43,533 nt of DNA from a virus. The translations under genes and the position numbers were made by a program. The stretch lies in the IMG/VR virus record IMGVR_UViG_3300035670_000441, positions 1-43,533 of that record; one strand, given 5' to 3'. The notes beneath the pieces are model-generated. The model saw only the letters and a program-made list of their open reading frames with translations. It was not told the origin of the DNA and made no database searches. Shown here piece by piece: positions 707-38,817 of this stretch. The stretch's first letter is position 1; every line of letters starts with the position of its first letter.

Positions 707-734
707 ATCATACCTGTAAATACAGGTCAGTAAA
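707..734 (-). promoter_or_regulatory. Sigma70-like promoter for the tail fibre gene with a palindrome filling its spacer
   Basis: On the minus strand the sequence reads TTTACT (729-734), a 16-nt spacer, then TATGAT (707-712, five of six matches to TATAAT). The spacer is exactly GACCTGTATTTACAGG, the phage-wide palindrome. Predicted start of transcription is near 700, giving a leader of about 20 nt that contains the tail fibre ribosome binding site. The -35 lies in the last codons of the upstream gene. A protein bound at the palindrome would block or remodel RNA polymerase. Promoter activity is inferred from sequence only. Confidence 0.55.
712..728. promoter_or_regulatory. Exact copy of the CCTGTATTTACAGG palindrome (candidate operator)
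   Basis: The plus strand reads ACCTGTAAATACAGGTC. The arms CCTGTA and TACAGG are perfect inverted repeats around an A/T centre. The site lies between the tail fibre start and the stop codon of the upstream gene, overlapping the stop by two bases. Other exact copies are at 19569, 29466 and 38557. Confidence 0.7.
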
Positions 735-7762: not shown

Positions 7763-7784
7763 CCCATATTCCCATATTTACAGG
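7763..7784. promoter_or_regulatory. Near-exact palindrome copy with a duplicated half-site
   Basis: CCCATATTTACAGG at 7771-7784 matches CCTGTATTTACAGG at 12 of 14 positions, with the alternative left arm CCCATA. An extra CCCATATT (7763-7770) stands directly beside it, giving an 8-bp tandem. The site lies in the 52-nt gap between gpM and gpL genes, in an otherwise overlapping gene run. Confidence 0.5.
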
Positions 7785-14489: not shown

Positions 14490-14513
14490 CCTGTATTTAC
14501 AGTTCTACAGGTC
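14490..14513. promoter_or_regulatory. Near-exact palindrome copy plus extra half-site
   Basis: CCTGTATTTACAGT (14490-14503) matches the palindrome at 13 of 14 positions and is followed by a second right arm, TACAGGTC (14506-14513). The site lies between the tail tube stop and the hairpin at 14456-14481. No convincing promoter is seen around it, so it may act as a roadblock type site rather than a promoter operator. Confidence 0.5.
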
Positions 14514-19535: not shown

Positions 19536-19544
19536 ACGCAGGTT

Positions 19545-19582
19545 CCCTTATTTATGGGTGCGATTGTGCCTGTAAATACAGG
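19545..19582. promoter_or_regulatory. Two palindrome sites upstream of the major capsid gene
   Basis: CCTGTAAATACAGG (19569-19582) is exact; CCCTTATTTATGGG (19545-19558) is a related site with the alternative arms and overlaps the capsid gene ribosome binding site. Both lie in the 57-nt gap between decoration and capsid genes. On the minus strand TTTACA of the first site and TAAATA of the second are 16 nt apart and could be promoter elements, but the leader would then be too short to keep the whole ribosome binding site. Confidence 0.6.
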
Positions 19583-19592
19583 TCAGCGCCAG

Positions 19593-22985: not shown

Positions 22986-22999
22986 ACTGTATTTACAGG
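22986..22999. promoter_or_regulatory. Palindrome copy in the portal leader
   Basis: ACTGTATTTACAGG matches 13 of 14 positions. It lies 3 bases before the portal start codon and about 12 to 25 nt after the predicted transcription start, in the place of the ribosome binding site. A bound protein would block transcription; as RNA the palindrome could form a small hairpin next to the start codon. Confidence 0.6.
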
Positions 23000-27210: not shown

Positions 27211-27566
27211 AGCTTTGCCTGCTGAATAGGGCGAGCATGGTTCTAGGCTCGGGCCTGTATTTATGGGTTTATGTTCCCCCGTATATACCGCCGACGTTAT
27301 TTAACAATCCACCGCTTTGCCCCGTGATCCGCGCCACCAGTGCGCCCCGCCGTTGCCCCCGTCTGTTATCGCCGCCAGTGCCGACGATAGCGAAAAAGAC
27401 GCAAACAACGGCCAGCACTGGCGGCCTTATCACTGCAAAGCACGGAAACGAAAACGGCGCCCCCAACAACGGGGCGCCCCATTGCCCCCAGTGGCTTTGA
27501 CTATGCGCCCCACCATCGGGGCGCATAGCAAAACCCACTAGAAAACAGAAAACAGGAAATCACAAA
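27211..27566. other. Leader of the first rightward gene: palindrome copy and two hairpins
   Basis: CCTGTATTTATGGG (27254-27267) is a 12-of-14 palindrome copy; 16 bases including it recur exactly, inverted, at 33497-33512. Two strong hairpins follow: GGCGCCCC/GGGGCGCC (27456-27478) and an 11-bp stem CTATGCGCCCC/GGGGCGCATAG (27501-27528). TTGCCCC is repeated at 27317, 27353 and 27482. No credible gene is seen; short frames here lack ribosome binding sites. Confidence 0.5.
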
Positions 27567-28963: not shown

Positions 28964-29458
28964 ATGACCAACGTAACCCCGCTGACCACCGCATCCCTGC
29001 CGTCGTTCCGCCTGCAAAAGCTGGCCGACGCTCACAGCGCCAAGGTCATCCCGCGTCTGGATCTGCCCACCCCGAACATCTACTTCGTCACGGTCAACTG
29101 CGCTATCGACGGCAGTGTGAACCACCTCTACGTGGCCGCTGACTTCTCCGGCGCCGCCCTGCGCAAGGTGCAGAACATCTGCTCCGACAAGCACGGCTTC
29201 CGCCCCTACCGCAGCAACAGCGTCATCAAGATGCGCCGGCTACGTTTGCAGGACATGCTGGAAACCCCGTCGGCGCTGGGCAAGGCCATCGAAACGGCCA
29301 AGGAGCTGGGCGAGAAGGACATCGTCGCCGCCCTGGAGAAACGCCCCGAGCAGATTGCCACCCTGCTGCAAGGTCCGGCTGCCGAGCGTGTTGACTTCGA
29401 CGCTGTCGCCCGAGCCCTCGCCGAGCAGCTGCGCACCCTGGACAAACTCCCGGCGTAA
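28964..29458 (+). CDS. Unknown protein (164 aa)
   Basis: The product starts MTNVTPLTTASLPSFRLQKL. The middle (NIYFVTVNCAIDGSVNHLYV) is beta-like; the C-terminal half is helical and charged (ALGKAIETAKELGEKDIVAA). No known domain was recognised. ATG 28964 follows AGGAAATCACGAAA, almost the same leader as the gene at 27567, so the two may be translated or regulated alike. The gene is followed after 5 bases by an exact copy of the phage palindrome. Confidence 0.7.
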   Translation: MTNVTPLTTASLPSFRLQKLADAHSAKVIPRLDLPTPNIYFVTVNCAIDGSVNHLYVAADFSGAALRKVQNICSDKHGFRPYRSNSVIKMRRLRLQDMLETPSALGKAIETAKELGEKDIVAALEKRPEQIATLLQGPAAERVDFDAVARALAEQLRTLDKLPA

Positions 29459-29463
29459 CTGCC

Positions 29464-29481
29464 GACCTGTATTTACAGGTC
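29464..29481. promoter_or_regulatory. Longest exact palindrome copy, GACCTGTATTTACAGGTC
   Basis: Here the arms extend to 8 bp (GACCTGTA / TACAGGTC) around TT. The site lies just after the stop of the 164-aa gene and 75 bp before the next start. No -10 element follows, so it is not a promoter operator of the type at 707-734. Confidence 0.7.
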
Positions 29482-33467: not shown

Positions 33468-33848
33468 ATGAACAAGCACCATGTTTATGCGCGATTAACC
33501 CATAAATACAGGGCTGGCTGGTCCCATCTCGACCGCCACGAATATGTCTTCGACCTCAAGTTGACCCCGCGCAAGCTGGTCAACCGCACTGACGACGGCG
33601 ACCTCGACCACCTCCTATACGGCAGGCTCAGCGCCAAGCAGCGTGAGCAGGCCAGGAAGGTGTGGGAGAAGCTGCCGCGACAGGATCGAGGGCAGTTCAA
33701 ACACTGGCTCTGCCGCACCATCTCCAGTGAGTTCGTCAGCGGCTGCCAGTGCGAGCACGACTGCTGCGGCCACTACCAGAGCTACGCGGCAACCGCCATC
33801 TACGGCCGCCGCGTGGTGGTCAATGTCCACAGTTACCGCAATTTGTGA
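33468..33848 (+). CDS. Unknown protein (126 aa) with a Cys/His cluster; gene carries a palindrome copy
   Basis: The product is basic in its first half (LTPRKLVNR, LSAKQREQARKVWEKLPRQD) and has the cluster CQCEHDCCGHY near residues 93-103, a potential metal site. The start ATG 33468 lies one base after the previous stop. CCCATAAATACAGG (33499-33512), a 12-of-14 palindrome copy, lies at codons 11-15; 16 bases here are identical to the inverse of 27254-27269. A second in-frame start after the site is not evident. Possible nucleic-acid binder; function unknown. Confidence 0.65.
   Translation: MNKHHVYARLTHKYRAGWSHLDRHEYVFDLKLTPRKLVNRTDDGDLDHLLYGRLSAKQREQARKVWEKLPRQDRGQFKHWLCRTISSEFVSGCQCEHDCCGHYQSYAATAIYGRRVVVNVHSYRNL
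33499..33512. promoter_or_regulatory. Palindrome copy with CCCATA arm inside a coding region
   Basis: CCCATAAATACAGG matches 12 of 14 positions and falls within the first codons of the 126-aa gene. Its AT content stands out from the GC-rich gene. Together with two flanking A it equals the reverse complement of 27254-27269 (AACCCATAAATACAGG). Confidence 0.5.
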
Positions 33849-37685: not shown

Positions 37686-37846
37686 GCGGCCTCCTGTATC
37701 AGCTGGAGACCAAGGCCATGCCTGGCCAGATCATGCGGATAGACGGCCCCTGGGACACCTGGGGCCGAGTGATCAAGCACCAGGCGTCGGGGTTCCACTT
37801 GATTCGAGGCCTCGGCCACAAGAAGCCAGTGGAGGTGCAACGATGA
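37682..37846 (+). CDS. Small protein (54 aa), unknown
   Basis: The product starts MSGLLYQLETKAMPGQIMRI and ends HKKPVEVQR. It overlaps the previous stop (ATGA) and the next start by four bases. It may be a small beta protein (WGRVIKHQASGFHLIRGLGH). Function unknown. Confidence 0.55.
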   Translation: MSGLLYQLETKAMPGQIMRIDGPWDTWGRVIKHQASGFHLIRGLGHKKPVEVQR

Positions 37847-38817
37847 CCCGCCTGCTGACACCCTTGGCGCTGGCCCTGGCCGGCGTCACCGCCGCCTCGG
37901 TCGGAATGGCCGTCCACCGGCTGATAGCAGACCCGGTGCTGGCATGGATGTTCAGCGGCGCTGCGGGGCTGCTGGACGTGTTCAAGTACGCCGCCTGGCC
38001 GGTGGCCGCCCTTTTGCTCAGCGCGAAGCGTAGGGCCCTTGCAGGCTGCCTGGCGGCGTGCGCCCTACTCTTTGCCGGCGTGTCCGGCTGGGCGACCTTC
38101 GACAGGGTGGTCGGGGCGGTAGAGAACCGTGCCGCCGGCGGCGAGCAACGGCTGATCGACCTGGCCGAGCAGCAGGAGGAAGGTCGCAAGCGAGTGGCAG
38201 ACCTGGACCTGCAGCTGGTCGAGGTGCGGCGCCAAGCCGCCTGGATGCGTGAGCGTGGCATGGTCAGCAAGGCGCAGGAGCTGGAGGGCGGGGCCATTGC
38301 CCGGGCCGATGCCGAGCGCACCGCCGCCCTGGGCCGGGTGGCCGCCGCCGCCGAGGAGCGTCAGCAGATCATCGCCGGCCGGGGTGCCGCGCTACCCCAG
38401 CGGGTGGTTCACCTCCTCGGCCTGGGATTCGCCCTGGCCCTGGAGGTGGTGCCGGTCCTGATCTTCCTCACCGGCGGCAAGCCAGCTGCTGAGTTACCGA
38501 GCCTGCCGGACACCGAGTTACCGCCGTCGACGAAGGAGTTACTGGCGACCCAGGAACCTGTATTTACAGGAGAACACGCGGAAGTTTTCGAGGTGGCAGT
38601 GCCGGTCAAGTTGATCGAGCAGAAGCCCAAGCCAGCCCAGCCGGGCCGCGACGAGGACCTGCTGAAGGCGCTGCTTGCCGGCGGTGAGGAACTGATGAAG
38701 GTCAAGGACTTCGCCAAAGCCCACAGCATTGGCAACACCCGGGCCTCCGCCGTCTACAAGGCAGCAGAAGCAGCAGGCCACATCAGGAAGACAGCAGCCG
38801 GCTACGTCGTAGCCTGA
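37843..38817 (+). CDS. Four-helix membrane protein with coiled-coil loop and C-terminal helix-turn-helix-like domain
   Basis: The 324-aa product has hydrophobic segments at about residues 4-24, 32-60, 64-84 and 187-210. AKRR (61-64) lies between the second and third, so by the positive-inside rule both ends are in the cytoplasm and residues 85-186, a Glu/Arg/Ala-rich coiled coil, are outside. The C-terminal tail (211-324) has a Pro/Glu-rich linker and a domain (271-324) with KVKDFAKAHSIGNTRASAVY, AAEAAGHIRKTAAGYVV, which reads like a winged helix-turn-helix. This layout resembles membrane-bound regulators (ToxR/CadC type, only in principle) or membrane replication anchors such as phi29 p16.7. 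An exact palindrome copy lies at codons 238-243, in the linker. The gene is followed by an AT-rich 44-bp gap. Confidence 0.65.
   Translation: MTRLLTPLALALAGVTAASVGMAVHRLIADPVLAWMFSGAAGLLDVFKYAAWPVAALLLSAKRRALAGCLAACALLFAGVSGWATFDRVVGAVENRAAGGEQRLIDLAEQQEEGRKRVADLDLQLVEVRRQAAWMRERGMVSKAQELEGGAIARADAERTAALGRVAAAAEERQQIIAGRGAALPQRVVHLLGLGFALALEVVPVLIFLTGGKPAAELPSLPDTELPPSTKELLATQEPVFTGEHAEVFEVAVPVKLIEQKPKPAQPGRDEDLLKALLAGGEELMKVKDFAKAHSIGNTRASAVYKAAEAAGHIRKTAAGYVVA
38557..38570. promoter_or_regulatory. Exact palindrome copy inside the membrane/HTH gene
   Basis: CCTGTATTTACAGG encodes P-V-F-T-G in the linker between membrane part and DNA-binding part. AT-rich DNA is unusual for this gene. If the gene product or a partner binds the palindrome, the site could give feedback or a roadblock. 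Confidence 0.65.

Follow-up and report, generated by a model that had tools for sequence, protein, structure and literature searches.

The window (the whole stretch of virus DNA that was analysed, 43,533 nt) contains at 37843-38817 an open reading frame encoding a protein of 324 aa. The frame starts with an ATG at 37843, its stop codon ends at 38817, and the stop of the preceding open reading frame overlaps its start. The following features were assigned to the gene:

37843..38817, plus strand: gene of the 324-aa membrane protein (open frame, Shine-Dalgarno sequence, 16-member family with conserved ends)
37831..37835, plus strand: Shine-Dalgarno sequence GGAGG, 7 nt 5' of the ATG, read from the sequence
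37855..38112, plus strand: TM1 (residues 5-27), TM2 (31-60) and TM3 (64-90), from hydropathy, the positive-inside rule and AlphaFold2 helices
38113..38394, plus strand: antiparallel coiled-coil hairpin, residues 91-184, predicted to be periplasmic (AlphaFold2 helices 64-137 and 141-180, pLDDT mostly 84-96)
38239..38292, plus strand: conserved hairpin tip, residues 133-150, with R136-x-R138-G139-M140-V-S-K-A invariant or near-invariant in 16 members
38398..38472, plus strand: TM4, residues 186-210, with the motif GFALALEVVP (hydropathy, AlphaFold2, family conservation)
38476..38643, plus strand: cytoplasmic linker, residues 212-267, predicted to be disordered (pLDDT 32-44; linker length in the family 22-58 aa)
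38557..38570, no strand: exact palindromic 14-mer CCTGTATTTACAGG in linker codons 239-243, kept in the phage record G001 with both arms intact
38644..38814, plus strand: winged-helix-like C-terminal domain, residues 268-324 (two AlphaFold2 models, Foldseek, near-invariant R300, K316 and T317)

Hydropathy analysis revealed four membrane segments. In the AlphaFold2 model computed from a 16-row alignment, helices were found at residues 2-27, 31-60, 64-137, 141-180 and 186-210; TM3 continues into the coiled coil, which turns sharply at 138-140 and returns to TM4. From the positive charges (MTR, AKRRA and the tail) an N-in/C-in topology with the coiled coil outside is predicted. The tail shows the order of a winged helix, with helices at 269-279, 287-293 and 298-310 followed by strands at 314-317 and 320-323. 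For the window protein the mean pLDDT was 71.8 (winged helix 72-84) and the pTM 0.38. The model started from the homologue L138 has the same architecture with a pLDDT of 82.1 (winged helix 86-91), and the overall pTM is low in the models (0.38-0.48). Foldseek comparison of the tail with the PDB returned mostly winged helices (MarR, DtxR-like, ScpB, Zalpha, FtsK gamma) at probabilities of 0.94-1.00, with E-values that were all 0.13 or worse. In comparisons with viral models, most of the length was matched by 4 and 6 uncharacterised proteins at E<=0.001 and with low TM-scores. The first-pass annotation had described four membrane segments, an external coiled coil and a cytoplasmic helix-turn-helix-like tail, and this predicted arrangement agrees with hydropathy, positive charges and both AlphaFold2 models. 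The structure prediction which it had proposed beforehand for the tail gave a winged-helix fold in the two models. As modelled, the protein is most likely an inner-membrane protein which combines a periplasmic antenna with a DNA-binding-like tail.

No named family was found for the protein in Pfam, PHROGs, NCBIfam or PDB sequences, and tblastn of named phages and plasmids gave no match. By sequence comparison it is a member of a new family. Profile searches of viral contigs revealed 18 loci, near-identical and partial ones counted. Among 399 Pseudomonadaceae genomes 12 contain a match, mostly in prophages; one of these matches covers the tail region only and one is apparently frameshifted. The architecture had been called rare in phages. 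This is only partly right, because a few per cent of the Pseudomonadaceae genomes have relatives, mostly as prophage genes, and other viral proteins are predicted to have a similar architecture. Mean identity is 72-80% for the TM helices and the hairpin tip (76% for the tip itself), 59-62% for the coil arms, 54% for the winged helix and 52% for the linker. Such conservation of membrane part and tip next to a diverging winged helix is as might be expected if the sensor stays fixed while the DNA targets change. In the tail, I296, G297, R300, A301, G312, K316 and T317 are among the near-invariant residues of 16 members. R300, K316 and T317 map to the predicted recognition helix and wing, which matches the expectation for DNA contact. 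The winged helix is retained in nearly all complete family members. In a Pseudomonas linyingensis prophage (L006:9968-10759, L017) the protein stops soon after TM4 and has lost the winged helix, and the membrane part may therefore have a function of its own.

FtsK is similar to the 324-aa protein in its four-helix membrane domain, its long flexible linker, its C-terminal winged helix and the IGxxRA motif of the recognition helix. The FtsK gamma structure 2ve8_C aligned with the tail with a Foldseek TM, normalised by target length, of 0.72 (E 0.82). The IGxxRA pattern is reminiscent of the recognition helix of FtsK gamma, but in statistical terms the connection is weak: with the FtsK_gamma HMM the homologue L147 was the only match (E=0.0036) and the window protein gave none, and hhalign profile-profile comparison with FtsK gamma reached a weak 17% probability. 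In contrast to FtsK, the protein has a long coiled coil between TM3 and TM4 and is built without a motor domain; Pfam gave no match to a RecA-type motor, and the linker runs straight to the winged helix. Regulators of the ToxR/CadC type also join a periplasmic part, a membrane helix and a cytoplasmic winged helix in one polypeptide. Their winged helix is N-terminal and they have a single TM helix, whereas that of the 324-aa protein is C-terminal and follows four TM helices.

Both in the window phage and in G001 the gene is located in the early region. In prophages of the L138 type it is flanked by a Toprim-containing primase-like gene and a tyrosine integrase gene, and in the L140 type it lies near genes for an integrase and a MobA/VirD2 relaxase. 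The relaxase gene (L140:1220-2374, plus strand; Pfam Relaxase E=6e-22, tested in L140) is a few kb away from the membrane-protein gene. L140 and its relatives L141-L145 and L148 are phage-like elements with tail genes, a tyrosine integrase and a relaxase. In the prophage L147, an orphan 140-aa protein with an FtsK gamma domain (L147:11408-11830, plus strand; Pfam 7.6e-25) is encoded shortly 3' of the gene. In L006, a cytosine methyltransferase-like gene, recognised by eye, adjoins it.

The 14-mer in the linker is one of several palindromes in the window. The exact pattern CCTGTAWWTACAGG occurs in 4 copies compared with 0 in 100 shuffles, and the looser pattern CYRTAWWTAYRG in 9 copies compared with a simulated mean of 0. 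The sites are palindromic, and their AT centre is seen both ways round. Apart from the copy in the gene, the sites, none of which has a strand, are:

713..726: palindrome site CCTGTAAATACAGG
7771..7784: palindrome site CCCATATTTACAGG
14490..14503: palindrome site, orthologous position in the phage records G006 (43924/43940) and G021 (47741)
19569..19582: palindrome site 5' of the capsid gene, matched at the orthologous position by 48953 in G006 and 52835 in G021
22986..22999: palindrome site 5' of the portal gene, matched at the orthologous position by 52375 in G006 and 56272 in G021
27254..27267: palindrome site CCTGTATTTATGGG, matched at the orthologous position, via flanking sequence, by 56762 in G006 and 60764 in G021
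29466..29479: palindrome site that follows gene 28964-29458, matched at the orthologous position by 1538 in G001
33499..33512: palindrome site CCCATAAATACAGG

Four sites of the window thus have orthologous counterparts in both G006 and G021. By our own simple gene calls, 6 of 9 sites in the window, 6 of 8 in G001 and 15 of 17 in G006 lie outside genes. Two further repeats were observed. A 44-nt repeat (19543-19586 and 687-730, 80% identical) contains the palindrome together with a related TTTATGG-type half about 10 nt away, and this pairing suggests tandem sites. At the far left end, positions 1-252 consist of two identical 126-nt direct copies with an inner period of 63 nt, which may represent a tail-gene repeat or an assembly-end effect.

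An exact palindrome copy in a linker with little protein constraint had already been noted in the first-pass annotation, and we find it at 38557-38570 in codons 239-243, within the disordered region. By eye, a GTG located 3' of it is a possible internal start, which would give a soluble winged helix; its weak ribosome site is absent in G001. Whether the copy itself has a function is a separate question. It could be a chance match or a passive relic, since most other copies lie in gene junctions, unlike this one. In addition, the linker is 88% identical between the window and G001, and 12 unchanged bases are expected by chance at about 0.2; arm conservation to G001 alone therefore proves little. 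Against this, chance would produce about 0 copies in the window, and G001 changed only the two central bases, from TT to AA, so that the site still fits the consensus despite the replacement of F241 by N. We regard a chance match or a relic without function as possible but on the unlikely side; most likely, the copy is one more site of the phage lineage, tolerated by the disordered linker.

The distribution of the palindromes was compared with that of the membrane protein. Sites of the CYRTAWWTAYRG type number 9 in the window, 8 in G001, 17 in G006 and 14 in G021. G006 (78 kb) and G021 (70 kb) have structural genes in common with the window phage (capsid 84%), and the membrane protein is absent from both of these palindrome-rich relatives. 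Conversely, the membrane protein is encoded in 17 other records of phages or prophages, together about 690 kb, of which 15 have no site and 2 have one, as counted with one consensus that would miss a divergent site type in these carriers. Protein and palindromes thus dissociate both ways, and by these counts the membrane protein is probably not the palindrome reader. Most likely, the palindromes serve the phage lineage as operator-like (stoperator-like) sites and constitute a system separate from the membrane protein. They are not a trait of the wider group, as the relatives Lana and PMBT3 have 0 palindromes. An integrase was found in neither of the two, and PMBT3 is described as virulent (PMC8421299).

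Other explanations of the palindromes were also considered. Sites with mixed CCATA and CTGTA halves occur in both orientations, and because these, as read by eye, include stem-breaking ones, a DNA site fits better than an RNA hairpin. A ParB-bound centromere was rejected, as no ParB_N match was found in G000, G001 and G006. A reader of the LexA/CI type was rejected as well, with no Peptidase_S24 and no HTH_3 match above the cut-off.

A candidate reader is encoded beside the integrase. In G001 (L155:2357-4307), an ArsR-type protein with a winged-helix domain (HTH_20 7e-10, HTH_5 1.6e-9) is encoded divergently from a tyrosine integrase, and GTATTcCTGTATTTACAGcAATAC is located about 40 nt 5' of its start. 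G021 (L167:3280-5251) has the same arrangement, with an integrase 62% identical to that of G001 and an ArsR-type protein 42% identical, preceded by two near-consensus sites. The ArsR-type proteins have 87 aa in G001 and 87-88 aa in the two records taken together. No HTH_20 match was found in 11 other records (the window, G006, Lana, PMBT3 and seven records that encode the membrane protein but are poor in palindromes). For G006, tblastn located an integrase of 66% identity at 77095-78315, which the PF00589 genome search had missed as a false negative. The contig ends inside this same integrase, and the ArsR gene would therefore fall into the gap. The window itself is probably a fragment, roughly half of a genome of about 80 kb, and integrase and ArsR genes of its own may lie in the remaining part. 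On the basis of this co-occurrence, the ArsR-type protein is most likely a better candidate for the palindrome reader than the membrane protein. Integrase, ArsR-type protein and upstream sites may form a palindromic stoperator immunity system, in which the phage repressor would silence the prophage by binding to the sites. In the mycobacteriophages L5 and Bxb1, stoperators are many short repressor-type sites, located mainly in intergenic regions of temperate phages (PMC3029335). The palindromes are similar to them in being many mainly intergenic copies of one site, but the sites of L5 and Bxb1 have 13 bp, lack symmetry and follow the direction of transcription, whereas here the sites are palindromes and the candidate repressor is of the ArsR type.

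Taken as a whole, these observations lead us to favour a membrane-tethered regulator over a DNA anchor, and the latter over an envelope protein of the superinfection type. We tentatively prefer the reading that the protein is a membrane-tethered one-component regulator with a DNA target of its own, and that the palindromes are not its sites and are most likely read by the ArsR-type repressor. The periplasmic R-x-R-G-M hairpin tip would meet an envelope partner or an envelope state, and the tethered winged helix would then hold or release its DNA target. The ArsR-type repressor, whose gene lies outside the window and adjoins that of the integrase, would bind the palindromes, including the lineage site which the linker of the membrane-protein gene tolerates. 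A bolder version, which we consider unlikely, is that the family represents new phage-encoded regulators located in the inner membrane. Their periplasmic coiled-coil antenna would sense the envelope (e.g., an incoming phage) and control the cytoplasmic winged helix, which would act directly on DNA, and the temperate Pseudomonas lineage that carries them would, separately, silence itself by ArsR-read palindromic stoperators.

The protein could also be a membrane anchor, whose winged helix fastens phage (or host) DNA to the inner membrane during replication or segregation and whose coiled coil serves oligomerisation or placement. This is consistent with the position of the gene between primase-like and integrase genes in many prophages, with the nearby relaxase in the L140 group, with its place just upstream of the orphan FtsK-gamma protein in L147 and with the tight cluster of early-region genes around the window copy. 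However, the best-conserved soluble part is the predicted periplasmic tip, which would be superfluous for a plain anchor. The phage phi29 protein p16.7, with which an anchor may be compared, has one TM helix, at its N-terminus, and a different DNA-binding fold; it interacts with ssDNA and with terminal protein and organises replication at the membrane. Sequence searches of the 324-aa protein in Pfam, PHROG and PDB, which gave no match of any kind, revealed no relation to it. Like the present protein, p16.7 is a phage-encoded integral membrane protein, and bringing phage DNA to the membrane is its proposed role (PMC4974454). We consider an anchor somewhat unlikely.

A lysogen envelope protein (superinfection exclusion or "moron") whose hairpin blocks the DNA entry of other phages, with a winged helix that only autoregulates or docks, appears rather improbable. 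Its accessory distribution over unrelated prophages at varied places, and the persistence of a member without the winged helix, would suit such a function. In the L140 group, moreover, a conserved intergenic region with a TATAAT separates the gene from a divergent gene that precedes it, but the promoter scan does not list this TATAAT as a promoter. Furthermore, the window gene is embedded in a run of same-strand early genes with no predicted promoter of its own in the promoter scan, and nearly all complete members keep the winged helix. That the tail itself binds the palindromes across the genome and so regulates phage genes from its membrane position, as the first-pass annotation had put forward, is very improbable despite its DNA-binding look and the palindrome within the gene here and in G001, given the 17 and 14 sites of G006 and G021 without the protein, the 17 essentially site-free carriers and the better fit of the ArsR-type protein with its upstream sites.

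If the preferred reading of a tethered regulator is true, antenna and DNA-binding domain in one phage protein would link events in the envelope directly to the control of phage genes or to the positioning of DNA. Among Pseudomonas prophages the family is common enough for tests in laboratory strains. Separating the protein from the palindromes directs experiments to the pair of ArsR-type protein and palindromes, which may represent a second, palindromic form of stoperator immunity outside the mycobacteriophages.
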